Source: a virus
Reading direction: 5' to 3' (one strand)
Length of the DNA stretch: 20,833 nt
Virus record (IMG/VR): IMGVR_UViG_3300017962_004005
Location: 1 to 20,833 of that record
A program made the position numbers and the translations under genes. Below are positions 1 to 17,277 of this stretch, piece after piece. Positions within the stretch are counted from its first letter, which is position 1; each line of letters begins with the position of its first letter. A model generated the notes under the pieces. That model was not told the DNA's origin. It made no database searches and worked only from the letters and a program-made list of their open reading frames with translations.

Positions 1-17
1 TGAATCATTATTTTCAT
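1..17 (-). CDS. Start of a further gene, cut by window edge
   Basis: An ATG at 17-15 overlaps the TGA stop of the nucleotidyltransferase gene (ATGA arrangement), which is how many neighbouring genes in this window are joined. The few codons visible read Met-Lys-Ile-Met-Ile. About 8 bases upstream is AACAGG, a plausible ribosome binding site. The same short stretch precedes the start at 4878. An alternative ATG lies in the same frame at 8-6. The product cannot be known from five residues; continuation of the sugar-modification operon is inferred from position only. Confidence 0.4.
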
Positions 18-1809: not shown

Positions 1810-1810
1810 T

Positions 1811-2757: not shown

Positions 2758-3772
2758 AATCTTCTATTGTCCTATATAATAAGTTGTTCCACTGTTTTGA
2801 GAAGTTTTCAAGATTGTATTCTTGAATTGTTTCCTTTCCTTTTTGGCCTATTTCCTCGCACATTTCTGGGTCATGTATCAGTTTTTCAAGGTGAAATCTA
2901 AGAGTTTCTGGGTCGTTTGAAATGATTCCATTGACTCCATTTTCTATAATTTCTGGGATCATACATGTTTCAGTTGAGACAACTGCACAACCACAAGCCA
3001 TTGCTTCCATGAGGGACATAGGGACCGGAGAATGGAGAGAGCTATTAAAGAAAATCAACGACTCGTGGTACTTCTTTCGAAGATCCTGAGTTGAGTGAGC
3101 AGCCGTTGAATAGGGAGGGCTATTCCCTACTAGCTCTAACGGGAAATCGCATTCTCCAGTTTCCCTATTAAACCCTAAAGTTTCACACCAAAGATTCCAA
3201 CCTAAACACCAATCTCTTTCGGGGAATAGATTAGCGACTGAGATTATTTGTTTCTTGCGATCTCTCTTGTAATCCCCCCAAAATTCAGTATCTAAACCAT
3301 GTTTAATAACTACTGCATTATTTGCATCTGTCATTCCCCACTGATTTCGGTTATAGTCCGATATGAAAACATATTTATCCGCGTCCGTAGCGATTAAATT
3401 AGCTCTTTGCTTATTAACGTCGTACCTAACATCTGGCAAGACATGTACTAACATAATAATCGGTATATTATAGATGTTTGCAATTTTTCTAGCTTCGTGA
3501 TATCTACCGCTGTCCTGACAGAGAACAAGGTCATAATTGATATGCTCTGGAAGACTACTCATTTGGTGGTAGTTATTTGGTTGTATCCCATAGTCACTAT
3601 TCCAAGTTTTTCCAACCTTGAGAGAGTAAAAATTATGTCCAGTGTTCGACAATGACTGCTCATATCTCTCATGTGTGCAGAATGTGATTACATTTAGCGG
3701 AGTATCCTCATTCAACGAAGCTCGTCTAAGAATTGTCCCAATTACAAAGTTATTTGCGTTAGCTACTCTCAT
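2738..3772 (-). CDS. GT-B (GT4-like) glycosyltransferase
   Basis: A 344-residue GT-B-fold glycosyltransferase. The N-terminal Rossmann half runs to about residue 165, with a YVFISDYNR strand (134-142) and IKHGLDTEFW (156-165) at the domain junction, matching the N-G-[VI]D-xx-xF pattern of GT4 enzymes. The C-terminal half opens with IISVANLFPERDW (176-188). It contains SLMEAMACGCAVVSTE (253-268), the donor-sugar and nucleotide site, then IPEIIENGVNGI. The first Glu of the usual E-x7-E motif is Ser248, leaving only Glu256. The protein is slightly shorter than typical GT4 enzymes. It begins in an ATGA overlap with the preceding glycosyltransferase and overlaps the methyltransferase-like gene by 20 bases. 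Substrate and acceptor are unknown. Confidence 0.85.
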   Translation of the reverse strand: MRVANANNFVIGTILRRASLNEDTPLNVITFCTHERYEQSLSNTGHNFYSLKVGKTWNSDYGIQPNNYHQMSSLPEHINYDLVLCQDSGRYHEARKIANIYNIPIIMLVHVLPDVRYDVNKQRANLIATDADKYVFISDYNRNQWGMTDANNAVVIKHGLDTEFWGDYKRDRKKQIISVANLFPERDWCLGWNLWCETLGFNRETGECDFPLELVGNSPPYSTAAHSTQDLRKKYHESLIFFNSSLHSPVPMSLMEAMACGCAVVSTETCMIPEIIENGVNGIISNDPETLRFHLEKLIHDPEMCEEIGQKGKETIQEYNLENFSKQWNNLLYRTIEDYESILL

Positions 3773-4878
3773 GATAATTTTTCCTTGATGATTTCACCGA
3801 CTTTTTCGTGACTAAATTCCATAGCCTTTTTCTTTTGCTCATCACACCTTTTGTCATATTCGTGAATTGATAGAATATGCTCACTATAGATCTCTCTCAT
3901 TTTATCCCTTAAAGCGGAAACTGAAATTTCTCTCCAATATCCTCTTCCGGTATGCAGTTCAGGAGGTGAAGACATTGAATTATAGCACGGTTCCCAACTG
4001 GCAGCTACTGAATTATTACCAGTATCAACATAGTCTTCCATTCCATTATCGCTAGTATAAATTACAGGAATACCCATAACTCCAGCCTCAACAGCAGGTA
4101 TACAACAGGCTTCCCCTCTTGAGGGCATCACAAAACAATGAGCGTTTTTCAAAAGTCCAATATAGTCGATTCTATCTAGTCTATCTGCAACTATAACATC
4201 GCCACCATATCTCTTTCTAATTTTTAACCTATCCTTGATCTGGTTCGTATAATCATTAAGAATTTGGAACTGGTCTCCCCTGCTAACGTTTGGCATACTA
4301 GTTTTAATAACTAGCTTCACATTTTCTTTTGGATGAAATTCTGTATGAAAAGCCTTTAGTAAAGCCTCTATATTTTTTCGTTCGACACATTCCCCAACAA
4401 AGATAAAATTGAAGCTTTTTTGTAGCTCAAAAACCTCGGTCTTTCTATCTCCAATATCATATTCGTCCACATTAATACAATGAGGAACAATTTCGATTGG
4501 GATTTTTACCTTACTAAGTAATGAGGTCTCTTTACCCTTTTGATTTGGAACCCATGCTTCATCAAGTTGATTAATGAATTTAGGCCACATAGCTTGAGTA
4601 ATATCTGTAGTCTCTGTTTCGTAAAGACAGATGTTTTTAAAATTACTGTTATAGCTAAATAGCGGAGGTAAAGTATGCTGAATAACGGTATCAGCCCCTC
4701 TTGAACTTTTAGACTCTAATTCAAGAATTCTTTCTGGAACCGTTACCGGCTGATTATTAAAGGTTATACATCTGGGAACAACGTCTATTCCAACCTTGTC
4801 CATAGCGAGAATATTATTGAGTGCAGCATTGCCCCAACCAGTCCCGTCTTTGTAGTTACCTATGTAGATTACTTTCAT
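3769..4878 (-). CDS. GT-B (GT4-like) glycosyltransferase
   Basis: A 369-residue cytoplasmic glycosyltransferase of the GT-B fold. The N-terminus MKVIYIGNYKDGTGWG has the Gly-rich loop of the first Rossmann domain. ICLYETETT (83-91) and the VPHCINVDEY junction (131-140) follow. The donor-binding half has NFIFVGECVERKNIEALL (157-174), the standard start of the second Rossmann domain. FVMPSRGEACCIPAVEAG (249-266) carries an intact E-x7-E pair (Glu256 and Glu264), and VIYTSDNGMEDYV comes after it. All expected GT4 landmarks are present, so it is probably active. The ATG lies within the last codons of the upstream gene (23-base overlap), with AACAGG about 6 bases upstream as a plausible ribosome binding site. 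Sugar specificity cannot be read from the sequence. Confidence 0.88.
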   Translation of the reverse strand: MKVIYIGNYKDGTGWGNAALNNILAMDKVGIDVVPRCITFNNQPVTVPERILELESKSSRGADTVIQHTLPPLFSYNSNFKNICLYETETTDITQAMWPKFINQLDEAWVPNQKGKETSLLSKVKIPIEIVPHCINVDEYDIGDRKTEVFELQKSFNFIFVGECVERKNIEALLKAFHTEFHPKENVKLVIKTSMPNVSRGDQFQILNDYTNQIKDRLKIRKRYGGDVIVADRLDRIDYIGLLKNAHCFVMPSRGEACCIPAVEAGVMGIPVIYTSDNGMEDYVDTGNNSVAASWEPCYNSMSSPPELHTGRGYWREISVSALRDKMREIYSEHILSIHEYDKRCDEQKKKAMEFSHEKVGEIIKEKLS

Positions 4879-6529
4879 TATTTACCTGTTCCCATCTTGC
4901 TTGTTCTAGCTTATTGAATTGATCCCTACTGTGAGAAAGCTGTTCGTAGGCTTTATGCTTATCATAATCAACAAAATTATTTTTGTTATCCCTAACGTGA
5001 CTTTCATTGAAGAAGTAAATTTCGTTTGTAGTACTCTTCAAGTGTCCTCGATAAGTCAAGTCTCTAACCAATTTTCTCCAGTGGAAACCATGAACCCAAC
5101 TTGGCTTACGCAGTACCTTATCAAACAAATAAGTCGCCTGATCCTTTGGCGAGGTGATATTGCTCGGAACTGGTGGACCCGCATCTAAAATCTCTGGTGG
5201 GGATAGCCAAGTTGTACTCATATCTTCCGAGATAACAGGCTCATTCATGAAGAAATTCATCCACTTATTGGCTGTCCTATCCCAATTATAGTGCTTAAGG
5301 GCGAGTTCTCTTGATCTTTCTCCATATTTTTTCCTTTTTTCTGAAGACATGTTGTATATCTCTCTAAAAAGTCTAACTGCTTCAGCGTTATTAGGTAATG
5401 CCTTTTTCAAGCCAGTTTCCGATTCGTATGGCTTATGCAATACAGGAATCATAAAGGCTTCAATATTGTGTCCTACAGAACTCATTGCGGAATAGTCAAC
5501 TGTCATGACTGGAATACCACAATACGCTGCTTCGACCTGAGGCATACCAAACCCTTCATTTGTCGCATATTGGATATAGCAATCAAAAAGGTTATAGATA
5601 TGAGCTAGTTCTTCATCGTTTATTGGATTATGAGTGCCAATCAAACTTAGCTTAAAGTTTCCACACCCTCTACAGAAGTTGTTTACGTCGTGGAAGAAAT
5701 TACACGTTAAATATCCACAATTAGTACACTTATACGTGAATAAAACCCTGTCAGTTAGCCCATATTCTATTAATAGCTTAGGAATATCCCATCCAAGGTC
5801 AGGATAATAAGTATGACAGTAAAGATAAGCGTTTTTGTTGTCCTTGCTTCTTGAGATAAAATCTTTGAATGTTCGGAAAAGTTCTGGATATAGCTTACGC
5901 TTTTGGTTACGCATTACCGTTCCAAAGATTACGCTATCGTCAATAACTCCAAACTTTTCTCTAGATTCAGGGATTGGCCTAAAAGAATCTGAGGCGGCGG
6001 GAGATGCAACATCAATGATTCTAATGTGATCACTTTGAGATTCGAGAACCTGTTTTCCATACTCCGAGTATGTAAACACCGCATCAGCATCAATATATGA
6101 TTCAATCCACATTTCGTGCTGCGGTTCCGAATCAACCGTTGGCATTGGAACCCACTTATAGTAATCTCTAAAGGCCGACCTTGATTTCTGCTGATATTCA
6201 TGCATCCACCAGTCTCGAATATCCATAACAAAATCAGGCTTCACTTTAATCAGGGCGGCATTAAAGTTGTATTCTCCAAACTCAAATGCATCGTAGGAAT
6301 TATATTCCTCTAAAAGAACTGGATCAGTAGGCTTGTTGATAATTACATCCCAAGGAGTGTTATCGATAGCCTCTCTATCCTCATTTGCATCACAAAAACA
6401 AGCTAATTCAGCAACATAGAAAAGACCAGATTCATAGAATCTTCTTAAGATCTCTCGACTATATACTGAATAACCTGTTGATTTTGTTGTCGATTCTGTG
6501 ACAAAGAGGATTCTTTTTTTTCTGTCCAT
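4856..6529 (-). CDS. GT-B glycosyltransferase with internal zinc ribbon
   Basis: A 557-residue protein, longer than ordinary GT4 enzymes. The N-terminal half starts ILFVTESTTKSTGYSVYS (7-24). The donor-binding half begins near VIFGTVMRNQKRKLYPELF (200-218) and contains NEGFGMPQVEAAYCGIPVM (324-342) with the E-x7-E pair Glu325 and Glu333. Between them sits an unusual Cys cluster, C268-x2-C271, C276 and C286-x2-C289, a probable zinc ribbon inserted in the second Rossmann domain. A C-terminal extension of about 120 residues (from about 440) has no recognised motif and ends in a charged, coil-like tail. This is the first gene after the terminator at 6545-6582. A GAGG sequence 8 bases before the ATG is a good ribosome binding site. 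Glycosyltransferase assignment is firm; the role of the zinc ribbon is unknown. Confidence 0.87.
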   Translation of the reverse strand: MDRKKRILFVTESTTKSTGYSVYSREILRRFYESGLFYVAELACFCDANEDREAIDNTPWDVIINKPTDPVLLEEYNSYDAFEFGEYNFNAALIKVKPDFVMDIRDWWMHEYQQKSRSAFRDYYKWVPMPTVDSEPQHEMWIESYIDADAVFTYSEYGKQVLESQSDHIRIIDVASPAASDSFRPIPESREKFGVIDDSVIFGTVMRNQKRKLYPELFRTFKDFISRSKDNKNAYLYCHTYYPDLGWDIPKLLIEYGLTDRVLFTYKCTNCGYLTCNFFHDVNNFCRGCGNFKLSLIGTHNPINDEELAHIYNLFDCYIQYATNEGFGMPQVEAAYCGIPVMTVDYSAMSSVGHNIEAFMIPVLHKPYESETGLKKALPNNAEAVRLFREIYNMSSEKRKKYGERSRELALKHYNWDRTANKWMNFFMNEPVISEDMSTTWLSPPEILDAGPPVPSNITSPKDQATYLFDKVLRKPSWVHGFHWRKLVRDLTYRGHLKSTTNEIYFFNESHVRDNKNNFVDYDKHKAYEQLSHSRDQFNKLEQARWEQVNNESNLHR

Positions 6530-6592: not shown

Positions 6593-6934
6593 TTATGCCG
6601 TTTCAGCGGCAGCTCTCTTCTTCGCACCAAAGTAGAAGTTCTTGACTTTGAAGACGGTCTTTTTACGTGTTGTACCGTCATTCTTGTCTTCCCAAGTTTC
6701 AGGCTTTGCTCTAGACTCAACAATAAGTTGATCGCCCTTTTTTGCATAGGTAGAGAGCACATTGCCCATGTTACCCCAACAATCGAAATCGAAATAATCA
6801 ACATCGATCTTATCTTCGCCATTAGATCTATAACGATCCTCAACAGCGAGACTAAACTTGGTGACACTACTTGTGCCAACATCACGACTTTCTGGATCTC
6901 CAGTAAGTCTTCCTACAAACGTACAATGATTCAT
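6593..6934 (-). CDS. ssb: Single-stranded DNA-binding protein
   Basis: A 113-residue OB-fold SSB that coats single-stranded DNA at the fork. The family pattern is clear: CTFVGRLTGDPESR (4-17), VTKFSLAVEDRY (24-35), DYFDFDCWGNMGNVLSTYAKKGDQLIVES (46-74) and KTVFKVKNFYF near 92-102. Bacterial SSBs normally continue with a Gly/Pro-rich tail and an acidic tip ending in PF that recruits partner proteins. Here the protein stops after AKKRAAAETA, so both the tail and the acidic tip are missing. AGAGGA about 9 bases before the ATG is the ribosome binding site. An overlapping out-of-frame ATGATG lies between them. The gene is the last one before the strong terminator, consistent with closing the replication operon. 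Confidence 0.93.
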   Translation of the reverse strand: MNHCTFVGRLTGDPESRDVGTSSVTKFSLAVEDRYRSNGEDKIDVDYFDFDCWGNMGNVLSTYAKKGDQLIVESRAKPETWEDKNDGTTRKKTVFKVKNFYFGAKKRAAAETA

Positions 6935-6983: not shown

Positions 6984-7493
6984 TTATCCTTGTTTTAATT
7001 CATCGATTATGAAAAGTTGCCTATTTTTAGAAACAGCACCTTTCACAATCACAACACTTCCTTCATAAAGAAAAGCCTTGTTTTTTCTATGGTATTGATC
7101 GGGAAAAAGAACGGCATTATCAAGTCTTCCGCTTGAGTCTTCAAGTTTTACGAATGCCATTAGTTGTCCGGGGTTTTTACCATTCTTTGTCTTAATCTCA
7201 TTATAGCTCGAAACTGAAGCACATAAAATTAAATCTTTGTTAATTGGAGCATTTTCCAAAACTGTTCTACATTCGTACTGAGTATTGATTCCAACAATGT
7301 CAGAAATAGAATATGAAAGAGAAACACCAAAATAAATTTCTTCTTGCTCACAGATATACCTTATATCATCTTCGAGAGTTTGCATCGGGTTATCGAGAGA
7401 TCTTTTAATCTCTGTAACCTTTTTCAATCTATTTGCCGTAGTTCTTCTATCGGTATTTATGAGTTTTCTTATATGATCACTCAGTGTCTGCAT
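6984..7493 (-). CDS. Separate C-terminal (OB-fold) part of DNA pol III alpha
   Basis: About 169 residues matching the C-terminal region of bacterial DnaE, which in typical alpha subunits lies in the same polypeptide as the polymerase. EEIYFGVSLSYSISD corresponds to the conserved E-x-LG-xY-LS-xHPL stretch. The OB-fold follows: a strand with ASVSSYNEIKTKNGK, then LMAFVKLEDSSGRLDNAVLF (equivalent to the MAFVxLED-xG-xxEVxVF signature), then VVIVKGAVSKNRQLFIIDEL. The polymerase core gene 2.7 kb upstream ends just where this part would begin. I chose the ATG at 7493 with AAGGT about 10 bases upstream; a GTG at 7511 in the same frame is possible and has no better ribosome binding site. It overlaps the preceding gene. 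Likely role: ssDNA binding and partner contacts for the replicative polymerase, acting in trans. Confidence 0.8.
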   Translation of the reverse strand: MQTLSDHIRKLINTDRRTTANRLKKVTEIKRSLDNPMQTLEDDIRYICEQEEIYFGVSLSYSISDIVGINTQYECRTVLENAPINKDLILCASVSSYNEIKTKNGKNPGQLMAFVKLEDSSGRLDNAVLFPDQYHRKNKAFLYEGSVVIVKGAVSKNRQLFIIDELKQG

Positions 7494-7761
7494 ATTTATT
7501 TTTACCTTCACAACAGTCTCTATAAGGAGCGGGAATAGCGGAAGTCTTTATGGTTGGTTTTCCATTTTCGTCCAGATCCATATACTCTATATCCACCGAT
7601 GGTTTACCGCAAGGACAAGGATCTATCCTTTTAGGGAGCATCTTCATAATCGGATACCCCTCCTGAACAGCAGTGCTTCTCTTACCAGAATGAGGCCAAG
7701 TTTGCCGTCTCATATCGTATTTTGTAATATCACCGTAATAATCGTGTTGTTTACTTCTCAT
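7477..7761 (-). CDS. Small Cys-containing protein, unknown
   Basis: A 94-residue protein not recognised as a known family. The N-terminal half is basic and aromatic. The centre has PCPCGKPSVDIEY with Cys49 and Cys51, and a second pair, Cys83-Cys84, sits in YRDCCEGKN near the C-terminus. The four Cys could bind one zinc ion, although the spacing is not a classical ribbon. Its ATG overlaps the preceding stop by 11 bases and its end overlaps the DnaE C-terminal gene, so it is certainly part of the operon. A small zinc-stabilised accessory protein is the most that can be suggested. Confidence 0.7.
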   Translation of the reverse strand: MRSKQHDYYGDITKYDMRRQTWPHSGKRSTAVQEGYPIMKMLPKRIDPCPCGKPSVDIEYMDLDENGKPTIKTSAIPAPYRDCCEGKNKYADTE

Positions 7762-8113
7762 CTTTTCTCCAAACTGTATGAGGGTTTCTTTCTAAATGAT
7801 TAAAGATACCGCTTTCTTCTATATACTCATCCAATTTACTCATATTGAGTTTATGTCCGCTAACCTTAAACTCTCTATAGCATGGAACATGACCCTCTTT
7901 TAATTTTCGGTAATAATGTAAGGTCAAGCAGTTGTCATTACATAGTCTTTTTAGTTCTTCTTCAATTATGTAGTGTTCTGCTTCAGTTAGGTTCAAACAC
8001 CCATAAAATTCACCATTCTTAAAATATGAGAATTTGGAAACATCTATTGGATCTCCAACAATGGCTTTTTCTGGTATTCTCTTGCCTCTAGGTATCGGTA
8101 GCTTCTCTCCCAT
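7751..8113 (-). CDS. Unknown phage protein
   Basis: A 120-residue protein with no recognised motif. It has a basic, Pro-rich start (PIPRGKRIPEKA), a central helical segment, scattered Cys residues, and a C-terminal part with the look of a small alpha/beta domain ending in HTVWRKDEK. The ATG at 8113 is preferred over an in-frame TTG at 8125 because GAGGG lies 5 bases upstream of the ATG. That GAGGG overlaps a TGA which would be the natural end of the preceding gene if its reading frame had not been changed by a 28-bp duplication. The stop overlaps the next gene by 11 bases. Coding is well supported; function unknown. Confidence 0.7.
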   Translation of the reverse strand: MGEKLPIPRGKRIPEKAIVGDPIDVSKFSYFKNGEFYGCLNLTEAEHYIIEEELKRLCNDNCLTLHYYRKLKEGHVPCYREFKVSGHKLNMSKLDEYIEESGIFNHLERNPHTVWRKDEK

Positions 8114-8129
8114 TTTTTCCCTCAATAAA

Positions 8130-8185
8130 TAGCTGGTGGTACATACTTAGGATAAACTAGGTGGTGGCACATCCTTAGGATAAAC
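8130..8185 (-). repeat. 28-bp imperfect tandem duplication
   Basis: Two adjacent 28-base units, 8158-8185 and 8130-8157, differ at 3 positions. On the minus strand each begins GTTTATCCTAAG and ends in CTA. The first unit encodes the end of the 114-residue gene. The second is read in a shifted frame and provides a TAA after three codons. Because 28 is not a multiple of three, the copy changes the C-terminus of the protein. Confidence 0.9.
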
Positions 8186-8491
8186 ACATTGTGGATAATT
8201 ATCTTCAAGCGTATGCTCAAAAGTATAATTAGGGTTCAAGGGGGTAGATCCGTCAGTTAATGTTGCAGTTGTGGGGAATATATCATAATTTTTATTCGGC
8301 TTATCCGTCATAATCACGCTATTGTAATAAGCTGGTGGCTTTTCAATTTCGTGAGTGAAAACCAAATCAAGCTGCTTTTTTACTTTTTCAACTTGATAGC
8401 TATCTAACATGACATAATCTCCATTTACGTCATTATTTCCCGTTATTTCAAAAAAACCCTGTAACCAATAACAAAAATCTCTAGGCGTCAT
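8147..8491 (-). CDS. Conserved phage protein (MTPRDFCYWLQG-type)
   Basis: A 114-residue protein of a type I recognise from many phage genomes as a conserved hypothetical. It starts TPRDFCYWLQGFFEI, followed by a segment ending in QVEKVKKQLDLVFTHEIEKP (about 33-52). No biochemical role is known to me. After about residue 55 the sequence is Pro/Thr/Asn-rich and probably unstructured. The last residues PPPSLS are produced by the frame change at the tandem duplication. Without the second repeat unit the protein would end ...VYPKYVPPAIY-stop, with its TGA inside the next gene's ribosome binding site. The start is in an ATGA overlap with the exonuclease gene. The N-terminal domain is intact, so the gene is probably functional. 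Confidence 0.8.
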   Translation of the reverse strand: MTPRDFCYWLQGFFEITGNNDVNGDYVMLDSYQVEKVKKQLDLVFTHEIEKPPAYYNSVIMTDKPNKNYDIFPTTATLTDGSTPLNPNYTFEHTLEDNYPQCVYPKDVPPPSLS

Positions 8492-9207
8492 ACGTACATC
8501 CCCGTTTTAGCAAAAGCATTTTCAAAGTTAGTTTTGTTAGCAATATTTCTATGATATTTAAGAAACTTGATAAAGATGTTCGCCGTATCTTTAACGTCCT
8601 GCAATGCGTCGTGAGCCTTGTCGAAACTTTCTTCTGGAAAACCTAACCATCTACGATTATTATCCATTGAGATAGATTTAACATCAGGATTTGATTCAGT
8701 CCACATCCAAACGTTCTGCATTACATCTACACTCCTGATTTTATTGAATAGGTTAGGATTTCCATCCTCTCCAACCTGTTTACCTCTCACTCCAACAGAA
8801 CTGAATTCTCCACGACACAATCTATCTATGATTGGAAGGTCGAATCCAACTATATTATAGCCAACAGGAATAGCAGCGTTAAAAGAATTACTAGTTTTAT
8901 TGAATTTTTTTACCCATTTTACAAAATTATTCCAGACAATATCTAGTTCCGGTGCTTGATCTATTTGCTCTCTCGTTTTTCCTGTGACTTTTAGAGCACC
9001 ATCTTCAAGTGGGTCAAGACCTAGTTCAATAGCTTTTTCATCATCAATAACGGCACGAATTTCACTGTTAAACTCTCCCCCAGACTTGATTTCAAGCGTT
9101 CTAGGGTCAAGCATTACAGCGGCAAGCTGCGTTGGTTGGGTCTTGTGCGGATTACGGCTCCCTGTTTCGAAATCGAAGACACAATATGGCGTAAAATTAA
9201 GTGGCAT
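8488..9207 (-). CDS. DnaQ-like 3'-5' exonuclease (DEDDh)
   Basis: A 239-residue exonuclease of the DnaQ/RNase T superfamily, which removes mispaired 3' ends using two metal ions. All five active-site residues are visible. VFDFETG gives Asp12 and Glu14, GYNIVGFDLPII gives Asp123, and AHDALQDVKDT gives His199 and Asp204, the H-x4-D spacing of the DEDDh subclass. The final 30 residues (after about 210) form a short extension that could hold partner contacts. It lies between the polymerase core gene and the separate polymerase C-terminal gene, so a proofreading epsilon-type role in the phage replisome is the natural reading. AAGG upstream of the ATG is a suitable ribosome binding site. Confidence 0.9.
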   Translation of the reverse strand: MPLNFTPYCVFDFETGSRNPHKTQPTQLAAVMLDPRTLEIKSGGEFNSEIRAVIDDEKAIELGLDPLEDGALKVTGKTREQIDQAPELDIVWNNFVKWVKKFNKTSNSFNAAIPVGYNIVGFDLPIIDRLCRGEFSSVGVRGKQVGEDGNPNLFNKIRSVDVMQNVWMWTESNPDVKSISMDNNRRWLGFPEESFDKAHDALQDVKDTANIFIKFLKYHRNIANKTNFENAFAKTGMYV

Positions 9208-9209
9208 AT

Positions 9210-9509
9210 TTATTCCTTTTCTCTTTCGTAAATTTCATTTAAAATCATCTCTATATCTTCTAGTTCACGATATATATTATCTATTTTTGACCTAATTGAT
9301 CTAATATTACCTCTCGTGACAGTATCCTCAAGAACATTCTGTGTTGCTTCCTCACTTCCACACATTCTTAATTGTTCAATAGCCTCTGGAGATATCCATA
9401 GATCATTCGTTTTTGGATCATTATTTAAAAACATGGTTTCAAAATGACCATTGGGACACTTGAATTCTTCGGTGATTTTTTCTTCACATTGAATGCACCA
9501 TTTATTCAA
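9210..9509 (-). CDS. Zinc-finger plus coiled-coil small protein
   Basis: A 99-residue protein with an N-terminal zinc-finger pattern C5-x2-C8-x9-C18-x3-H22 and a C-terminal half (about 58-99) rich in Glu, Ile, Leu and Arg in heptad-like order, suggesting a coiled coil. The start codon is TTG at 9509, overlapping the preceding stop as TTGA, with a strong GGAGG 7 bases upstream that decides the start. A protein of this layout could be a small DNA- or protein-binding adaptor. It belongs to the group of short genes inserted between the two polymerase parts. No family name is assigned. Confidence 0.75.
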   Translation of the reverse strand: MNKWCIQCEEKITEEFKCPNGHFETMFLNNDPKTNDLWISPEAIEQLRMCGSEEATQNVLEDTVTRGNIRSIRSKIDNIYRELEDIEMILNEIYEREKE

Positions 9510-9931
9510 AACTCTACCTCCGCAGCCGCATCCAAGATATCACTCTCATAAGGAGCGTGACAATACAGTTCAAGCTCTTTTTCCTTTGCCTTACGAATCA
9601 TGTCGGCACTATCATTAGACCCTGTATCAATAGCGATACAAGCTTCGGCGTACATAGTCATTTTTTCGTTACGAATAGGTCCAGCTTTAGCATTGTACTT
9701 ACCATAAGCATTCTCTTTAACAATAGCTTCTGGATGATCAATATCCTTCCATTCAGCTTTGAACTTTACGCACTTAACTCCGTTCTCTCTAGCCCATCTT
9801 TCACCGAGAGCATCAGCACCTTTGGCAGCACCGATAACTACTTCCGTAATTTCTATGCCACTTTTTTCTATTGCTAAACACAACTCCTCATAATCAGTAA
9901 AATCACGAGGTCCACAAATAATCGTTTTCAT
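9506..9931 (-). CDS. DUF2493/YspA-like SLOG-fold protein
   Basis: About 141 residues from the preferred start. The pattern KTIICGPRDFTDYE at the N-terminus, VVIGAAKGADALGERWARENG in the middle, and AGPIRNEKMTMYAEACIAI is that of the DUF2493 (YspA, cpYpsA-related) family. This is a Rossmann-like SLOG domain proposed to bind nucleotide-derived ligands and common in phages. The Met at 9931 is chosen over one at 9967 because the family begins directly with this strand. GGAAGG also lies about 9 bases upstream, and the ATG follows the preceding TAG by one base. The biochemical role in phages is not established. Its place in a replication operon suggests nucleotide sensing or metabolism, which is inference. 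Confidence 0.85.
   Translation of the reverse strand: MKTIICGPRDFTDYEELCLAIEKSGIEITEVVIGAAKGADALGERWARENGVKCVKFKAEWKDIDHPEAIVKENAYGKYNAKAGPIRNEKMTMYAEACIAIDTGSNDSADMIRKAKEKELELYCHAPYESDILDAAAEVEF
9517..9521 (-). promoter_or_regulatory. Strong Shine-Dalgarno for TTG start at 9509
   Basis: GGAGG on the minus strand lies 7 bases before the TTG start of the zinc-finger gene. It is among the best ribosome binding sites in the window and offsets the weak start codon. Confidence 0.75.
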
Positions 9932-9932
9932 T

Positions 9933-10187
9933 CTATTTATCCTTCCTATCGTATTTCCTGCACTCATCTATAAAAAACCTTACTGCCTTATTCAAATCAT
10001 TGAACAAAACATCTCCTTCATACATCTTTGTTTCCTTATTGTATTTGGAGCCAGATAAATTTACCTGATATGGCTTATTCGTCTTAAATGGATACCTGAG
10101 TACTTTCGAAAGATCACAGATAGTGTTACCTCTGTATTCGACAGCTCCACCAAACATTACAATTCCCTTTATATTCTCAAACTTCAT
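9933..10187 (-). CDS. Unknown small protein
   Basis: An 84-residue protein without recognised motifs. The start KFENIKGIVMFGGAVEYRGN looks like a small beta-hairpin domain, followed by a Lys/Tyr-rich middle and a C-terminal helix ending in KYDRKDK. The gene overlaps the end of the polymerase core gene by 11 bases and stops one base before the SLOG-protein ATG, so translation is likely coupled. Its Glu/Lys-rich composition suggests a small soluble protein. No function proposed. Confidence 0.7.
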   Translation of the reverse strand: MKFENIKGIVMFGGAVEYRGNTICDLSKVLRYPFKTNKPYQVNLSGSKYNKETKMYEGDVLFNDLNKAVRFFIDECRKYDRKDK

Positions 10188-12741
10188 AATTATCCACCAT
10201 CCAGACTACCTCATTTTTGTTTAGGCTTTTCAAAGTTTCATATTCATAGAGCATTCTATTTCTGCTCACATTACTATTTTTCCCTAATAGCGATCCTGTG
10301 CATATCAAAGGAACACTAGCTCTCTTGTTGAGGCCAGAAAGAATCAACATGAGAATTTCGATCCAAGTAAAATCCTCTACCTTCTTACCTAATTTTAGCT
10401 CGGCTTCATCGATTTTTCGAAAAAAATCATCACAATCTTTATCTCCGACGCTTTTTATTCTAGAAAGACCGTAGAAAATAGAGTTCTTTTCTTCATCATA
10501 ATGAAAATCACGGTAGAGATTAGAAAGATTTGGGGGATTAATATCAATTGAGAATGTTCTACAATCCATAACAAGATCGCGAACCTCATCTTTCCACATT
10601 GGTTTTTTGTGTGCATGGTTCAGATATTTCTCAAAAAATATAGGAGTATCGTGAACCTTACAATAGGCCGACCAATAAGCATTTACAGCATAAACCACAC
10701 TATGGCTAGCGTTGAACGAATATCTGTTTGCCTTTTCGATATTATCAAAAATATCCATAGCGATTTTAGCGTCTACAAGTCCAACCTCTTCACAACCATC
10801 AATGAATTTTTGCTTTAGCTCTTTCATAAGCTTTGCATTTTTCTTACCAATAGCTTTTCTCAAGTCATCAGAAAGTTCTTCGGAAAATCCCGCAAGCTTA
10901 GTTGCGATTTTCATCGCCTGTTCTTGATATACAATAATCCCATAAGTATCTTTTAGGATAGGTTCAAGAGAAGGGTGAAGATAATCAAAACTAGCACCAA
11001 ATTTACGATCAACGTAGTGCTGTGTCATACTCTTACCTTCGAGAGAAGCACCTAACGCCCCCGGTCTTAATAAAGCAGAGAGGTCTGACAATTCCTTGAT
11101 ACTTCTAGGTTTAACTTTTGCTGACCAAGTTTGACCAGTATCTGAGTCTAATTGAAATACTCCCTTAGTTCTTCCTTCACACATCAGATCCCAAACCTCT
11201 TCATCATCAAAATTATTCAACTCAGAAAGTGTTTTAATCTTTTTGCTCTTGTTTACGATCCCCAAGATTTTACTGAGAATATCTACCCCAAGAATATCGA
11301 GTTTAAGTCCACCCATATACTCGACTTCTTTCATAGTGATCGTACTTACAATATCGCCGTCATCATCAATACGAACTGGCATAAAGTTCTTAATTGGATC
11401 TGGAGAAATAACAACAGCAGCAGCATGTTTTCCGTGCTGTCTATAGATTCCTTCAATTTCTACAGCAAGCTTGAATACTTCCGCATAATCACCAACATAA
11501 TGAAATTCACCGTCATCATTAGATACTACTCGACAATATTTGTCCATTATTTTTGGACGATGTTTTAGAGTCCATAGTAGCAGAGAAGTCTCTTCTACAT
11601 CTTCCATCTGGTCTTCGACCTTTGCCTTTTCTGGCATCATCTTAGTGATTTCCTTAATCTCACCAAATGGAAGATCGGTTTTTTGCTTGAACGCAATCTC
11701 TAGAGCAGAACGAGCCTGAAATGTACCAAACGTTCCAATATGACACACATTCTCATTACCATACCTCTGTTTAATATATTCTAGAACATCTGCTCTGTTT
11801 TCAGACGGAATATCCACATCAATATCTGGAAGCTCAACTCTCGTAGCGGTGTTTCTTGATTTATTATAGAAACGACCGAACAGAAGGTTGTATTCGATAG
11901 GATCTGTTTGAGTGACCCCAATTAGATACGAGACAAGGCAACCGGCAGCACTCCCTCTCCCCGGTCCCGGCAACCACCCTTGATCGCGAACGTAATTCAC
12001 AATGTCCCACACGATGAGAAAATATGAAGAAAGTCCAGCACCTTGCAGTACCTCAAGTTCATATTTTACTCTATCGGCGTACTCCTTTTCCTTTTCGGGA
12101 GTATCTATCTTGTCTGTACCCTTTAGCTTTTCACGCCAACCGTCTCTACAAAGCTGTCTTAGAAACTCGTCTGGGGAAAGATTGTTTGGGCAAGAAAAAG
12201 AGGGGAGGATAGGTCTAGACGCCAATCCATAATCCTCAACGCTATCTGCAAGTTCTTTTGCTCTTAGGTACTCTTCATTAGTTTCATATTCGGAAACAAA
12301 ATCAGATTCACTAAGAATTTTCCTTTTCTCTTCAGGGGTTGTTTCTTTATTAGAGTTTACAAGTAGCTCTAGTTCCGCATAGTCTCCATCAAAGTAGTTT
12401 GCGGTCTTATCAGAAAAAAGACGAAGGTTTTTATTGAGTTGAAGATCAGCAATCTCTGACTCAGAGACGGTTTCTCCAAGTCCCATCTTGGAACAGACAG
12501 AGATGAGAGTATTCAGTCCATCTCTATTAAGAGCATAAAATGGAAGTCCGTCGAGTTCCACTCCAATTACCGGCTTGACTTCTTCATCCTTACACGCCTT
12601 GTAGAAGTCTACCATCCCCGATATCGTATTTTTATCGCAGATCCCAACAAACTTCCACTCTTTTTCTTTTGCTAATTTTGCAAGCTGTTTAGGCTTAATA
12701 AAAGAAGAGTGTAACGAATTGTGAGTGTAGTTTCTTAGCAT
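10177..12741 (-). CDS. dnaE: DNA polymerase III alpha subunit, catalytic core
   Basis: An 854-residue family C polymerase core, copying DNA at the phage fork. An N-terminal PHP region (about 1-165) is shortened by roughly 100 residues compared with bacterial DnaE. It reads NYTHNSLHSSF where the metal-binding HxHS motif should be, so it is probably inactive. The polymerase palm follows: GPGRGSAAG (259-267), LPDIDVDI with the catalytic Asp306 and Asp308 (304-311), and GLKLDILG with the third Asp482. Further landmarks are GKHAAAVVIS (437-446), ALLRPGAL (556-563), YQEQAMKIATKLAGFS (605-620) and YSFNASHSVVYA (674-685). The protein ends near the HhH/LIxAGAFD-type region (CTGSLLGKN, 814-822), lacking the usual C-terminal OB-fold and tau-binding part. 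A separate gene at 6984-7493 supplies the OB-fold. GGGGAG precedes the ATG by about 11 bases. Confidence 0.95.
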   Translation of the reverse strand: MLRNYTHNSLHSSFIKPKQLAKLAKEKEWKFVGICDKNTISGMVDFYKACKDEEVKPVIGVELDGLPFYALNRDGLNTLISVCSKMGLGETVSESEIADLQLNKNLRLFSDKTANYFDGDYAELELLVNSNKETTPEEKRKILSESDFVSEYETNEEYLRAKELADSVEDYGLASRPILPSFSCPNNLSPDEFLRQLCRDGWREKLKGTDKIDTPEKEKEYADRVKYELEVLQGAGLSSYFLIVWDIVNYVRDQGWLPGPGRGSAAGCLVSYLIGVTQTDPIEYNLLFGRFYNKSRNTATRVELPDIDVDIPSENRADVLEYIKQRYGNENVCHIGTFGTFQARSALEIAFKQKTDLPFGEIKEITKMMPEKAKVEDQMEDVEETSLLLWTLKHRPKIMDKYCRVVSNDDGEFHYVGDYAEVFKLAVEIEGIYRQHGKHAAAVVISPDPIKNFMPVRIDDDGDIVSTITMKEVEYMGGLKLDILGVDILSKILGIVNKSKKIKTLSELNNFDDEEVWDLMCEGRTKGVFQLDSDTGQTWSAKVKPRSIKELSDLSALLRPGALGASLEGKSMTQHYVDRKFGASFDYLHPSLEPILKDTYGIIVYQEQAMKIATKLAGFSEELSDDLRKAIGKKNAKLMKELKQKFIDGCEEVGLVDAKIAMDIFDNIEKANRYSFNASHSVVYAVNAYWSAYCKVHDTPIFFEKYLNHAHKKPMWKDEVRDLVMDCRTFSIDINPPNLSNLYRDFHYDEEKNSIFYGLSRIKSVGDKDCDDFFRKIDEAELKLGKKVEDFTWIEILMLILSGLNKRASVPLICTGSLLGKNSNVSRNRMLYEYETLKSLNKNEVVWMVDNYEV

Positions 12742-12746
12742 TATCT

Positions 12747-13790
12747 TTAACTCCCCGGTGCATGATAGTAAGAGATATCGAAGTCATCTCTTTTAAGACT
12801 CTTCATTGTTTCATCAAGTCCCACATATTTAACACTTGCCTCAACAAAATCACAGATTCTAGTGTTTGTTCCGGGCCAATTTTCCTTACCGTACCTACAC
12901 ATAAAACACTTATTTTTCTCGGGTTTCCCGTCTGCCATTATCTTGTTTGAATACTTCACGCAACTTGGAAGATCATTCTCCAAAACCTGAGTATACTTCT
13001 TTTTCAGTTTTTCCATGAAAATTTCTTCATGTTCGTCATCAAAGCAGAAACTAAAAGCACCACCATCCCGAATAAAATATATCGTCATGATAATGTTATA
13101 TTCAGGATACATTTTTCTAAGAGCATAATAATAAAGAAGTAGTTGAGGATCTTGATCGAGATATTCGTAATCTTTCTCCTCTCCAGTCGCCCAATTCTTT
13201 CTAGCTCCAGTTTTGTAATCTATCACTTGTAAAGTGTTCTCGTCTTCTTTAACAACTAGATCGATTGTACCTTTTAGACTCAGATATCCAGTCATCTTAG
13301 TTCCGTCTGGTAAGACCTGATCTAATTTTGCCCAATCCTCTTTAATTTCAATATCAAAGTGTTGTTCTGGCTTGAAAATTTCTTGATTACGAGGATCATA
13401 GCGACCATCTTTAAACGTTAAAGCTTCATTAAGCCACTCTACACAAAATTTCCAGTCTGCATTTGTATAATCTTTCTCACATTTAGAAGTGTAGTATTCG
13501 TAACACTCTTCCAACATTCTATCTACAAATTCTTGAGTTCTTAATTCTGACTTGTTGATTTTGATTTCACCAACAGCATCATCATCTAAGATCAATTTTC
13601 TCTTTTTTGGATTTTCCTGCTCGTAGAGTTTGAGTCCCGCCAAAATTTCCATAACCTTATGAATTACGGTTCCTTTGTTTGCGGCTTTCCCAGATCCTCC
13701 ATGAATCCCAAGATTGTAAGATATGAAATATTGCATTTCGCACATATCATATCCGTTCATGCTCGAACTTCTAAAGTAATTAGCATACAT
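12747..13790 (-). CDS. Cas4/AddB-like PD-(D/E)XK nuclease, putative Fe-S
   Basis: A 347-residue nuclease of the RecB/Cas4/AddB branch of the PD-(D/E)XK superfamily. KGTVIHKVMEIL (39-50) carries the conserved His44, LKGTIDLVV has Asp177, VIDYKTG has Asp191 and Lys193 of the catalytic core, and DPQLLLYYYAL (214-224) has Gln216 of motif QxxxY. Four Cys occur as in iron-sulfur nucleases: C17 near the N-terminus and C295-x2-C298-x14-C313 near the C-terminus. The last gap is somewhat longer than usual. Such enzymes trim DNA ends for recombination or replication. The start overlaps the dNMP kinase stop as TAATG, and the stop is 5 bases before the polymerase ATG. Nuclease fold is clear; cluster binding is inferred. 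Confidence 0.88.
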   Translation of the reverse strand: MYANYFRSSSMNGYDMCEMQYFISYNLGIHGGSGKAANKGTVIHKVMEILAGLKLYEQENPKKRKLILDDDAVGEIKINKSELRTQEFVDRMLEECYEYYTSKCEKDYTNADWKFCVEWLNEALTFKDGRYDPRNQEIFKPEQHFDIEIKEDWAKLDQVLPDGTKMTGYLSLKGTIDLVVKEDENTLQVIDYKTGARKNWATGEEKDYEYLDQDPQLLLYYYALRKMYPEYNIIMTIYFIRDGGAFSFCFDDEHEEIFMEKLKKKYTQVLENDLPSCVKYSNKIMADGKPEKNKCFMCRYGKENWPGTNTRICDFVEASVKYVGLDETMKSLKRDDFDISYYHAPGS

Positions 13791-14722
13791 TAAATATTTT
13801 TTCCCTCTTTAGCTGGATTGATTTTCATTGTGGCAGAACTTCTTTTCTGTACCAAGTCTTTTATAGCTATAAAAAAATCCCCTTTTGGGACAAAGGTCTG
13901 AATCCATCCCCAATCCTTGAGGATTTTAACAGCTTCATCGCACATCTCTCTAATGTTCATATCCTGATTATCAATCACAGCATCGCATTTTTCAAGATCG
14001 AATGAATTTTCGGACTTGTGTTTATCGTCAAATGGATTTCTAGTTAGACCAATTATTTTGCCATTATTTTCTTGTACGGCATCTATTTCATTATTGAAAC
14101 GACAGTCAGAAATAACAGCAACTCCAGAATTCTCTGTAAGGATATCCTTCATGCAACGATTGACCCATATCGACTCATACATTTTCCTCATAATATCGCT
14201 ACCGAAGAATTGTAGAAATTCGCGAATGGTCATTGGTCCGGGTTCGTGATACGACAAACACTCATCTAAAAGCATACCGCTCGTTTCCTGTACAGCACGA
14301 TCATTGTAGACATTATCAGTACATACTCCCGGCATGTTTTCCCAACGAAGATGCTCCATTACTGTTTTTTTGTCTTTATCAGTACCATATACAAGATTGC
14401 GAGGACACTCAAATAAATCGATAGCGATTTCTTTTAGTGACTCAGCAAAGCTATAATTCTTAATAAAAGGCCACATTGAATCAGCAGCCCATCTTGCAAA
14501 ACGGAAATCATTAGTTTGATCAACCGTTAACTTTACTGTTGCAAGCTGTTCCTTACCATCAATTATAGTTGGTAGACCTTCTACAATCAACTCCCCCTCT
14601 TCGTCAATTGCGAAGTTTGTAATAATACCATTCCACTGTAATTGTAAACCATGCAGAAAATTAGAGAGGGTATTTTTACCCGCTTGTTTTTTTCCTGCAA
14701 TACCTAAAATTTTCTGTTCCAT
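13790..14722 (-). CDS. Deoxynucleoside monophosphate kinase (T4 gp1-like)
   Basis: A 310-residue P-loop kinase that phosphorylates dNMPs from degraded host DNA to dNDPs, feeding phage DNA synthesis. The P-loop is GKKQAGKN (10-17), of GxxxxGK form with Asn replacing the usual Thr/Ser at the next position before Thr18. REFLQFFGSDIMRKMY, with a following WVNRC, matches the LQ-x-xG-xxxR region. ISDCRFNNEIDAVQ (about 203-216) matches the conserved DxRFxNE motif of phage dNMP kinases. An insertion of about 50 residues (25-75) after the P-loop contains acidic beta-type sequence. Gene overlaps are TAATG at both ends, so it is translationally coupled to the primase and the nuclease. Specificity among dGMP, dTMP and modified dNMPs cannot be decided here. 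Confidence 0.88.
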   Translation of the reverse strand: MEQKILGIAGKKQAGKNTLSNFLHGLQLQWNGIITNFAIDEEGELIVEGLPTIIDGKEQLATVKLTVDQTNDFRFARWAADSMWPFIKNYSFAESLKEIAIDLFECPRNLVYGTDKDKKTVMEHLRWENMPGVCTDNVYNDRAVQETSGMLLDECLSYHEPGPMTIREFLQFFGSDIMRKMYESIWVNRCMKDILTENSGVAVISDCRFNNEIDAVQENNGKIIGLTRNPFDDKHKSENSFDLEKCDAVIDNQDMNIREMCDEAVKILKDWGWIQTFVPKGDFFIAIKDLVQKRSSATMKINPAKEGKNI

Positions 14723-15873
14723 TATTTTTCCTCTTTTAATAACATTGCTTCTTTGAACGTCTTGGGGAGTTTATCTAATATATGCTCCTGAAACTCCTCT
14801 TTTGTTAGATCGGCTACATCTGCCTTCTCTTCTTGTGTTTTATAAAATCTCTGAATGTCTCTCATCAGTGACTTCGGAATAACTGGTCGATGGATATTGT
14901 ATCTCCTGCCACATTTCTTGGCGATTTTTTCTGCTGCCTTTTCTCCAGCATCATCAAAATCTGTGAGTATGACCATATTTTGAATCATGGTTTTCTCCAA
15001 GACCAATAGTTGACTTTCAGAGAGGTCACACCCCATCAGCCCAATGCAATTTTCAGCACCGGATTCGTAACAACGCCAAACATCGCCTTGTCCTTCAACT
15101 ACGAACACAGTCATTATAGTCTCAATTAGCGACTTTGATTGATTAAATCCATAAAAAAGTGAAGAAAAGACACCTTTTGAGGTAGAATTCTTCCATTTCG
15201 GGTATTCATTATTCTCATAAATCTTTCTTCCAGTGCAGCCAGCATATCTTCCGTCTTCGGTGTAAACTGGAACCACTGCCCTAAAAGCCATTGGCTTATC
15301 CTTGTCCATACAGTCGCCAACATCAAATTTATATAGAGTTTCAGGTTCATAGTATGTCCGTCTCTTTAATATATTTGGATTGGTGAGTTTTCCAGTGTAA
15401 TACTGAGATGGAATATCCAGCTTATTGATAATCGTTTCTCTTGAAATATTTGGTAATTCCAGTTCCTTATTTTTCTTTTCAAAAACATCAAAAAGGTTAG
15501 ATTTGTTATTATTGTACTTTTTCGAAGACACGGAAAAATCTATATCTCCAACCAAACTTTTTGCACAGTTGATCACCTGTGGAAAAGCGATTTCTTCATC
15601 ATTCAGGCAACTTAATATCCCTTGAATAAATCCGAAAATATTATTGCCGTAGTCGTCATGACATCCACGAGTCCAACATACCCAATTCCCCTTAGCGGAA
15701 TCTCCATCGGTAAAAATACACGCTCCAGTTGGATTATCTCCATTATGGACCGGACAGGGAAACACTAGTCTGTTGTGTTCCTCAGTGTATTCTATATGGA
15801 ATTTATCTAGAATCTTCTTAGGATCTTCATTAAGAGATTCAGCTATCTTGAATATCTGTTCCTGAGCTATCAT
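14722..15873 (-). CDS. dnaG: DNA primase (CHC2 zinc + TOPRIM)
   Basis: A 383-residue DnaG-type primase making RNA primers at the fork. An N-terminal zinc motif C40-P-V-H43 with C66-x4-C71 fits the CHC2 type. The TOPRIM domain has FVVEGQGDVWRC (Glu260) and VILTDFDDAGEKAAEKIA (Asp305, Asp307), the metal-binding residues. KADVADL near 350 corresponds to the conserved KDPADL segment. It lacks the long C-terminal helicase-binding domain of bacterial DnaG, so it is a compact phage form. The ATG at 15873 is preferred over an in-frame TTG at 15879 because GAGGG lies 8 bases upstream. It overlaps the helicase gene by 35 bases, so the two are coupled and likely act as a primosome. Confidence 0.92.
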   Translation of the reverse strand: MIAQEQIFKIAESLNEDPKKILDKFHIEYTEEHNRLVFPCPVHNGDNPTGACIFTDGDSAKGNWVCWTRGCHDDYGNNIFGFIQGILSCLNDEEIAFPQVINCAKSLVGDIDFSVSSKKYNNNKSNLFDVFEKKNKELELPNISRETIINKLDIPSQYYTGKLTNPNILKRRTYYEPETLYKFDVGDCMDKDKPMAFRAVVPVYTEDGRYAGCTGRKIYENNEYPKWKNSTSKGVFSSLFYGFNQSKSLIETIMTVFVVEGQGDVWRCYESGAENCIGLMGCDLSESQLLVLEKTMIQNMVILTDFDDAGEKAAEKIAKKCGRRYNIHRPVIPKSLMRDIQRFYKTQEEKADVADLTKEEFQEHILDKLPKTFKEAMLLKEEK

Positions 15874-17275
15874 TCTCAAATCCCTCGGAGTTCTTTAAGT
15901 AAAAATCTCTTGTTTCCAACTCTTTTACAGTAGCAATATTAAACTTGTAATTGAAGTTTATGTAATCGCTTCCTTCTAGTCCAGCACCGTGTCTAGCGAC
16001 AATGGGAACCAATTTCCTATTTCCTCTATCGGGACCATCATTCGCTACTTCTTCCTCACTCTTTTCCTTTAATATACTGAAACTGGTACAAGTTTTGAGA
16101 ATACCATCGCTTCCAGCAACAACATCTGTAGATTCTCTTGTAATACCATCTCTATTCAATTGAATAAAAGATACGATTGGAACATCATATTTAACAGCAA
16201 AGTTGTGAAGGTCCATCATACTAAAGGCTAGTAACTGGTATTCCTTCATGCTATCATTGATTTCGCCATGATCGGTTACTTTGAAATAGTCATATATGAT
16301 TACACAATCATTAACTCGACCTGTTTCATCGAATCCAACATCACGATAAATAAAGTTTCTAATGATACCTAGAATTGTGGCAAACTTTGTTCCAGAAACG
16401 TTAACGTATTTGTAGTTCATTTCTTTGAATTTTTTAGCTGCCTCTCTGACTCTTCTTGTTTCTTCTGGGTCTTTAATATACTTTCCGGTTGATATCTTCT
16501 CAATATCTACACCGCTAAGACAAGAAATCATTCTGTCATTATGATCATCTTTCCCCATCTCAGTATCGACGATAAGAGTAGGAATGTCGCGAGAAGCTAT
16601 ATTCATGCATAGAGCATCAGCAGTAAAACTTTTACCGACCTTCATTCTCGCTCCGATAAGATCAACACATTTCCTTCTGAGTCCACCACCAATTGCCTTA
16701 TCAAACCACTTCCATCCGGTGGAGATACCAATCATATCTACCGGATTAGCTTCTTTTTCGGCAAGGTATTCATCGATACTATCTGCGGGACGGATAGCCT
16801 TATTATCAGATTCTTTATATATTTGCGAAGTAAAATCAAGAACTGGAGTCTCAATCAAATTAATGATATCGAGAATTGGCTCGCTACCGCTAACGTCAGA
16901 TAAAGCCTGCTTAATTCTATCTGCTAAAACAGCACCCTTATTCGCAAAGAGTAGCTTTGTTAGTTTAGATGCTTGAACTTCTGCATTTGCACGAGTGATT
17001 GGCATAGAAAAAAGAGATCGGATAAAACCAATCTCTTCATCATTTGCAATCTCTTCATAAAAGCCAAGTTCTGTTGCAGTAGATAATATAGACGTTAAAT
17101 CAATCTCTTCTGAATTTTGAAAAATCTTATCAAAACATTTGAATAGCCTTTGGTTATTAACGTCATAAAAGGCTTGTGGTTCTATATAATCTATCTCATA
17201 GAAGAAATCTACCCCGTACTGGCATAGTCCAGCCAATACTGCATTTTCTGCTGCTGTGTTTTTCAACTCTGTCAT
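15839..17275 (-). CDS. dnaB: Replicative DNA helicase, DnaB type
   Basis: A 478-residue hexameric 5'-3' helicase. The N-terminal domain starts AAENAVLAGLCQYG, a DnaB-type helical collar. The RecA-like motor has GISTGWKWFDKAIGGGLRR before the Walker A GARMKVGKS (208-216), LIVDTEMG as the H1a-equivalent Glu strand, Walker B CVIIYDYFK with Asp329, SFIQLNRD (Gln sensor) and ARHGAG-type arginine-containing loop later. The acidic tail (GFENDSSGTDIQDS) is probably flexible. The ATG at 17275 is preferred over an in-frame TTG at 17290: it follows the preceding TGA by two bases and has GGGG 5 bases upstream. No loader gene is recognised, although the neighbouring zinc-ribbon protein is a candidate. Confidence 0.93.
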   Translation of the reverse strand: MTELKNTAAENAVLAGLCQYGVDFFYEIDYIEPQAFYDVNNQRLFKCFDKIFQNSEEIDLTSILSTATELGFYEEIANDEEIGFIRSLFSMPITRANAEVQASKLTKLLFANKGAVLADRIKQALSDVSGSEPILDIINLIETPVLDFTSQIYKESDNKAIRPADSIDEYLAEKEANPVDMIGISTGWKWFDKAIGGGLRRKCVDLIGARMKVGKSFTADALCMNIASRDIPTLIVDTEMGKDDHNDRMISCLSGVDIEKISTGKYIKDPEETRRVREAAKKFKEMNYKYVNVSGTKFATILGIIRNFIYRDVGFDETGRVNDCVIIYDYFKVTDHGEINDSMKEYQLLAFSMMDLHNFAVKYDVPIVSFIQLNRDGITRESTDVVAGSDGILKTCTSFSILKEKSEEEVANDGPDRGNRKLVPIVARHGAGLEGSDYINFNYKFNIATVKELETRDFYLKNSEGFENDSSGTDIQDS

Positions 17276-17277
17276 TT

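Follow-up and report, generated by a model that had tools for sequence, protein, structure and literature searches.

In the current study, we examined a 20,833-nucleotide stretch of DNA from an uncultured virus of bacteria (IMG/VR record IMGVR_UViG_3300017962_004005; the whole stretch is hereafter called the window), in which two separate genes quite probably encode one DnaE-type DNA polymerase III alpha subunit as two chains that would assemble without covalent linkage. Both genes lie on the minus strand, that of an 854-amino acid (aa) catalytic core first (12741-10177) and that of a 169-aa OB protein downstream of it (7493-6984), and they are separated by seven open reading frames (ORFs) of 84, 153, 99, 239, 114, 124 and 94 aa, all on the same strand. 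This layout had been described in an earlier note made from the letters of the window, and its coordinates and directions were confirmed here.

By its profile and structural matches the larger protein is a DnaE-type DNA polymerase III alpha, nearer to DnaE than to PolC. It matches PF07733 (1.5e-69), PF17657 (1e-43) and, over residues 2-85, the PHP family PF02811 (3.7e-11), while all 11 of its matches among PDB sequences (E 0.001) are Pol III alpha chains, nine of DnaE and two of PolC, the DnaE matches stopping near query residue 770. The AlphaFold model has a predicted local distance difference test score (pLDDT) of 91.4 and finds 7pu7 as its best Foldseek match (E 3.1e-44), the best PDB structure matches being the DnaE proteins of M. 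tuberculosis, Taq and E. coli. Residues D306 and D308 (in PDIDVD) and D482 (in KLDILG), which are encoded within 11296-11826 (minus strand) and which we take to be the catalytic aspartates of DnaE, are all intact and are invariant across eight aligned DnaEs. The chain comprises a shortened PHP, the palm, the fingers and the helix-hairpin-helix (HhH) region; its frame is unbroken at residues ~497-507 (11221-11253, minus strand), the site at which 111 of the 125 complete loci of relatives break DnaE into an N-part and a C-part gene, and it ends just ahead of the OB module, where relatives read on, as the earlier note had proposed in placing its stop near residue 854. Since DnaEs without an OB are known, the absence of this module from the core chain marks a variant of DnaE. 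Up to core position 240 the chain has 240 residues, as against 369-377 residues in the relatives L061, L101 and L102 (L numbers denote loci of the window's family). By comparison with these three unsplit DnaEs, the PHP (core residues ~1-150; 12300-12741, minus strand) is ~130 residues shorter; it begins with NYTHNSLHS where relatives show an HxH motif, and similar shortening is seen in some, not all, of the split relatives.

The smaller protein is, on the strength of a family profile, a detached DnaE OB module, made up of a helical segment of ~60 residues and a five-strand OB barrel. Searches with the single sequence gave weak matches, to PF01336 (1.3e-4, below the Pfam cut-off) and to positions 997-1070 of phrog_405 (E 0.041), with no significant match among PDB sequences and a best tblastn E-value of 0.09 in phages. 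A profile built from 46 DnaE-fused OB modules of relatives, to which neither the window nor the related locus L255 contributed, scores the protein at 155 bits, compared with 9.7 for the best of 1000 shuffles and -1.5 for the SSB of the window. Against PDB sequences the OB family profile matches E. coli DnaE 948-1058 (1.9e-5) and Taq DnaE (0.005), followed more weakly by an ORC2 chain (0.24) and by the DnaE of M. tuberculosis (0.49). In the predicted structure (pLDDT 89) helices are followed by the barrel; the top Foldseek match is M. tuberculosis DnaE (7pu7; E 9.6e-6, the next at 2e-4), and VIA-align ranks DnaE 995-1099 first (Z 12.8, root-mean-square deviation 2.1 over 100 residues). It speaks against this identification that VIA-align puts PolD DP1 (Z 11.9) level with DnaE by the rule of the tool; as the fold match is tied and fold alone is not decisive, the family assignment rests on the sequence profile. 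The LMAFVKLED signature, which had been noticed together with the DnaE stretch preceding the OB, is present, and the searches assign the protein to the OB of DnaE and not to an unrelated OB-fold family. The two proteins, moreover, tile a full DnaE, for the C-part gene of L022 matches the core up to residue 369 and the OB profile from 374-376 onwards. An alternative GTG start at 7511 would give 175 aa; the ATG at 7493, which has GAAGGT upstream of it and yields 169 aa, is preferred because the sole possible start in L255 sits at the matching position.

The split form is conserved in a second species. Exact-peptide searches returned near-identical siblings only, namely five contigs with an identical core, four of which carry the OB gene while the fifth terminates just past the core. 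L255, by contrast, represents a distinct species on a 70.6-kb contig from a different metagenome, its core being 65% and its OB protein 55% identical to those of the window, and the gene order is the same: core, the 84-aa ORF, a SLOG-family gene, exonuclease, two of the three small ORFs, OB, SSB and glycosyltransferase. The record of the window is a 20.8-kb fragment, and a decayed gene or an assembly artefact might be suspected; we consider either highly improbable in view of the same arrangement in four of the five siblings and in L255, of the open frames, and of the excess of third-position differences between the window and L255 (0.36/0.23/0.52 per codon position for the OB gene and 0.28/0.18/0.53 for the core). 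One DnaE was found per contig in all five siblings and in all ten large contigs (54-244 kb) of the family, and no second DnaE was detected in these possibly incomplete records, two of which fall in both sets or may be incomplete. Each of the ten large contigs holds one DnaE and one OB, and neither Pol A nor Pol B was found in any of them (these contigs, too, may be incomplete); PF00136 of Pol B matched none of the ten, in a search in which five of 14 controls matched. A search with PF07068 for a T4-type capsid gave no match anywhere, the controls among them, and is uninformative.

In the proposed subunit, the 854-residue chain would provide the catalytic core and the DNA-binding HhH region; the helices and OB barrel, which in other DnaEs continue that same chain, would come from the 169-residue one. 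The pre-barrel helices would dock on the core, so that the proteins bind without splicing, and the barrel would then hold the single-stranded template, while the exonuclease encoded between the two genes may proofread. The latter (8488-9207, minus strand) is of the DEDDh type with 3'-5' polarity, as judged from PF00929 (3.8e-8), phrog_192 (5.6e-21) and its motifs, lies between the DnaE parts here and in most relatives, and is a probable proofreading subunit. Solved structures exist of OB-less E. coli alpha chains 910-918 residues long (2hnh, 2hqa and 4jom; full length 1160), indicating that a core can stand alone without the OB; such fragments are active, and the template is bound by the OB in single-stranded form. 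It is from these OB-less chains, together with the kept helical segment, that we infer a two-chain, noncovalent alpha. Residues 1-60 of the OB protein, forming the pre-barrel segment, are 67% identical between the window and L255, compared with 49% for the barrel, and against 15 fused relatives the window gives a ratio of segment to barrel identity of 0.96 and L255 one of 1.02, the value among the fused relatives themselves being 0.85.

This conservation of the pre-barrel segment favours a single alpha subunit over a free accessory, that is, a DnaE-derived OB protein which now binds single-stranded DNA beside SSB and is not bound to the polymerase. Such an accessory, which we regard as unlikely, would suit the position of the OB gene, adjoining that of SSB and seven ORFs away from the core, and bacterial DnaE variants without an OB do exist according to the available excerpts of PMC3919608. 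The pre-barrel helices, perhaps dispensable for a free binder, are nevertheless better kept than the barrel between the two stand-alone copies, and the neighbourhood of OB and SSB is inherited, since in most fused relatives as well the gene after the DnaE C part is that of SSB (in the exceptions L101, L257 and L259 it is elsewhere). Two points weigh against a two-chain alpha subunit. The unsplit pair L101/L257 also shows a ratio of 0.99, so that a kept segment is not exclusive to split forms and its conservation amounts to moderate support; and the OB is loosely attached in solved DnaEs.

Some relatives (L258/L260, L102 and L167) carry, as judged by eye, apparent split inteins in DnaE, which raises the question of whether the two pieces of the window are joined by protein trans-splicing or by RNA splicing. 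Either appears most improbable. Reading of the chain ends by eye against intein-bearing relatives revealed no intein part at either end of the window or L255 chains, in agreement with the earlier note, and these chains end and begin at a domain border without extra residues, whereas intein-split relatives have ~90-100 and 35-40. Relatives with intein-like parts thus look different, making intein splicing unlikely, and no Rfam family, introns included, reached the gathering threshold in the window, L255, L022, L258 or L102; seven ORFs, furthermore, lie between the parts.

The intein-like elements and other breaks of the relatives were themselves recorded. In L258 (9347-14030) and L260 (7198-11881) DnaE is broken near core residue 678 by what appears by eye to be a natural split intein, the N part of which starts with CLDPTTTV and the C part of which ends with IAVSN ahead of SHS; in L258 a 306-aa endonuclease-like ORF lies between the DnaE parts. 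L102 (9101-13851) has an intein-like break at a GRGS motif (core ~264), and L167 (12464-16100) appears to contain a whole intein-like insert as well as a split one, besides the break near 500, both again read by eye. An in-frame insert of ~400 aa with intein-like ends interrupts the DnaE C-part gene of L090 (9072-11987) at a TYG motif. In L275 (9488-13977) DnaE is joined at ~500; its break lies near core residue 300, where a 245-aa homing-endonuclease-like ORF separates the parts, and the exonuclease has been relocated behind the glycosyltransferase.

The family was sampled with three profile scans in viral contigs and a fourth in genome contigs, the best 80 matches being taken from each; the resulting counts are not frequencies in nature, and one of the viral scans used a profile suited to joined forms. 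Loci were accepted on an exonuclease match or on at least two backbone genes, by which 162 passed, and 37 of these were set aside as incomplete, including L167, solely since its intein-like insert cuts its match. As already mentioned, 111 of the 125 complete loci are broken between palm and fingers near core residue ~500, their second gene encoding fingers, HhH and OB; nine are joined at ~500 with the OB fused, and in five, namely four contigs of the window's species and L255, the OB is separate. Among the nine is L061, assigned by hand because a single 1148-aa frame holds both parts, its core alignment stopping at residue 770. At 95% identity the three classes amount to 84, 7 and 2 clusters, respectively, L061 again being counted as joined. 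Some of the loci joined at ~500 are broken elsewhere, as in L102 and L258/L260 by the apparent split inteins and in L275 near residue 300. Stand-alone OBs were sought around DnaE loci, a scope that a lone OB gene far from DnaE would escape.

In the 111 loci the N-part gene runs a median of six residues beyond its last aligned residue, the gap between the parts is 599-3113 bases (median 865), and the C part has an ATG before its aligned start in 106 loci and only GTG or TTG in five, a Shine-Dalgarno-like stretch preceding such an ATG in 61 of the 111; it is because of these features that the N and C parts are taken as separate genes. The gene order of the family, where contigs reach, is RecA, an endonuclease-like gene, a 174-aa gene, DnaB, primase, deoxynucleoside monophosphate (dNMP) kinase, PD-(D/E)XK nuclease, DnaE N part, exonuclease, DnaE C part, SSB and glycosyltransferase. 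The exonuclease lies between the DnaE parts in 117 loci, upstream in seven and downstream in one, counting those loci that have both the N part and the OB, and none is in reach in seven of the 162. Among the loci sampled, DnaE in pieces is the rule in this uncultured family and is usually broken elsewhere than before the OB, a result that goes beyond the earlier note, which had called for a survey of fused and split forms. No close match to the family was found among the phage records searched: among the matches listed, the best identities to cultured phages were 35% for the window core, 31.9% and 30.2% for the C-part genes of L042 and L022, 34.8% for an N-part gene and 29.9% for DnaB, the best segments within the family being mostly 36-49% identical. 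The best 80 matches of the genome-contig scan included two family members, L202 and L244, in a Flavobacteriales and a Lokiarchaeota metagenome-assembled genome, perhaps as misplaced phage contigs.

Probably, the break ahead of the OB arose by a shift and not as a first break. The core of the window occupies the slot of the N-part gene, after the PD-(D/E)XK nuclease and before the 84-aa ORF and the exonuclease, and the OB gene occupies the slot of the relatives' C-part gene, before SSB, which makes a shift of the DnaE break point probable. A tree built from eight proteins other than DnaE groups the window and L255 with L256, L258, L102, L101 and L257 (Shimodaira-Hasegawa-like approximate likelihood ratio test, SH-aLRT, 99), deep among the lineages broken at ~500. 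L275 must likewise lie inside the broken lineages, a placement outside them being rejected (approximately unbiased, AU, test, p 2.8e-47), and rejoining near residue 500 has therefore happened at least once; it probably occurred in the window's ancestry also. With about even confidence we propose that a DnaE in two genes, broken between palm and fingers, was rejoined and then broken again before the OB, which was left as a separate subunit in the old slot. The ancestor would already have had its two DnaE genes on either side of the exonuclease, and on the branch leading to the window and L255 the N-part gene would have been joined with the polymerase half of its C-part partner, only the OB end keeping the C-part slot. 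A possible route is a tandem duplication of the exonuclease and the C-part gene followed by complementary losses.

Several results weigh against such a moved break. The AU test retains a history in which the ~500 break arose once and the window's clade stands apart from it (p 0.069 for the eight-gene data and p 0.66 for DnaE itself), and a palm tree leaves the place of the window pair unresolved, or basal. In favour of a moved break, L028, a split relative, falls beside the window pair in a fingers tree (SH-aLRT 91); the trees of DnaE parts, being weak or drawn by long branches, agree in part only. A contrary history, possible though not, in our estimation, probable, starts from an unsplit DnaE: the window's lineage severed its OB, other lineages were cut near 500 independently, and no break moved. 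The p-value of 0.069 leaves room for a division of all the ~500-broken lineages, with L275, from the window's clade and L061; L256, L101 and L257, the closest lineages, have an unsplit DnaE; and L061, the sole outgroup with shared gene order, sits on a very long branch. Against an ancestral unsplit DnaE, the window's clade falls within split lineages in the eight-gene tree, on branches that are starred, L275 demonstrates that rejoining takes place, and the slots differ, for in L256, L258, L102, L101 and L257 the entire DnaE lies downstream of the exonuclease, whereas the core of the window and L255 lies upstream of the 84-aa ORF and the exonuclease, and the OB downstream. In L256 an ORF resembling the 84-aa ORF was seen by eye directly ahead of the exonuclease.

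Split DnaE as such is already known, from the cyanobacterial split-intein form, the minimal Pol III of jumbo phages and a number of named phages. Compared with bacterial (C-family) DnaE, the two chains of the window retain the order PHP, palm, fingers, HhH and OB as well as the catalytic aspartates, but they differ in being two, in the shortened PHP, in having nothing after the OB (no C-terminal domain), and in that no beta clamp was found in any of the ten large contigs of the family. Group 2.2 jumbo phages, according to the available excerpts of Iyer et al. 2021 (PMC7824862), encode a minimal Pol III alpha as two separate proteins from distant genes that are thought to reconstitute the enzyme, a likeness to the window; theirs consists of catalytic and template-binding parts only and stands beside a family B polymerase, whereas the window has PHP, fingers and OB with the break before the OB, and no Pol B was found in the ten large, possibly incomplete contigs of its family. 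The cyanobacterial DnaE (Wu 1998 and Caspi 2003, as cited in the excerpts of PMC6390638) is likewise encoded by two genes but, unlike that of the window, has its chains spliced by an intein. PolC has modules in common with DnaE, in one chain with a built-in exonuclease.

Among named phages, DnaE is annotated in two to three coding sequences (CDS) in MacGully, Beyoncage, Sparcetus, Satyr, S-CoN_Ph11, Cellulophaga phi13:1 and Alicyclobacillus MMB025; no stand-alone OB was found among the DnaE-annotated CDS of these seven phages (five examined by profile and two by annotation and matches, the rest of the genomes not being searched). The third 'polymerase' CDS of S-CoN_Ph11, considered as an OB, was rejected (profile E 0.28), and it corresponds to positions 858-914 of the full-length profile. 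The PHP is a separate CDS in Gordonia phage Beyoncage (L293, 3519-7151), Microbacterium phage Sparcetus (L294, 3495-6992) and Rhodococcus phage MacGully (L295, 3495-6961), and, as read from these annotations, this detached PHP is another DnaE module that has been split off.

In the literature searched, which took in few subscription papers, no description of a stand-alone DnaE OB gene was found. An OB domain could be detected in 97% or more of the C-family polymerases of bacteria (PMC3919608, excerpts). Three points are new, all drawn from uncultured sequences: the break on either side of the exonuclease that runs through the family, the apparent shift of this break, and the OB as a free subunit. 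The occurrence of the OB as a separate natural protein, in a group in which DnaE is also whole or broken elsewhere, opens the way to direct tests of the OB in trans and of the breaks that are tolerated, and the group offers a natural series in which to study the dismantling and rejoining of a replication enzyme. In PolC the OB is located at the opposite end of the core and is thought, according to the same source, to have arisen from that of DnaE through a duplication with circular permutation; if our interpretation is true, an intermediate of the free-subunit kind could account for the OB at opposite ends of DnaE and PolC.

The remaining features of the window, all on the minus strand, concern the interval between the two genes and its surroundings. 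Directly after the core lies the 84-aa ORF (9933-10187), homologs of which adjoin the DnaE N-part gene downstream in L022, L024, L114, L115, L122, L132 and L171, followed by a YAcAr/SLOG-family gene (9506-9967; PF10686, 9.7e-15) that is also present in L255. The 99-aa ORF (9210-9509) and the 114-aa ORF (8147-8491), the latter weakly matching phage families of unknown function, are without a significant match in L255, while the 124-aa ORF (7751-8125) is present there. The end of the 94-aa ORF (7477-7761) overlaps the start of the OB gene by 17 bases, stop included, and likewise in L255. Upstream of the core extends a replication cassette (12747-19773) of PD-(D/E)XK nuclease, dNMP kinase, Toprim primase, DnaB helicase, two small ORFs, an endonuclease-like gene and RecA, in an order common to relatives. 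Adjoining the OB gene downstream is SSB (6593-6934; PF00436, 5.1e-20), after which a run of glycosyltransferase-like genes was noted by eye (14-6529); a gene like that at 4856-6529 is found near the replication genes in most relatives whose contigs extend there. Within this run, an 85-aa ORF (1552-1809) begins with MKRRSFLGG, which by eye resembles a twin-arginine signal peptide.

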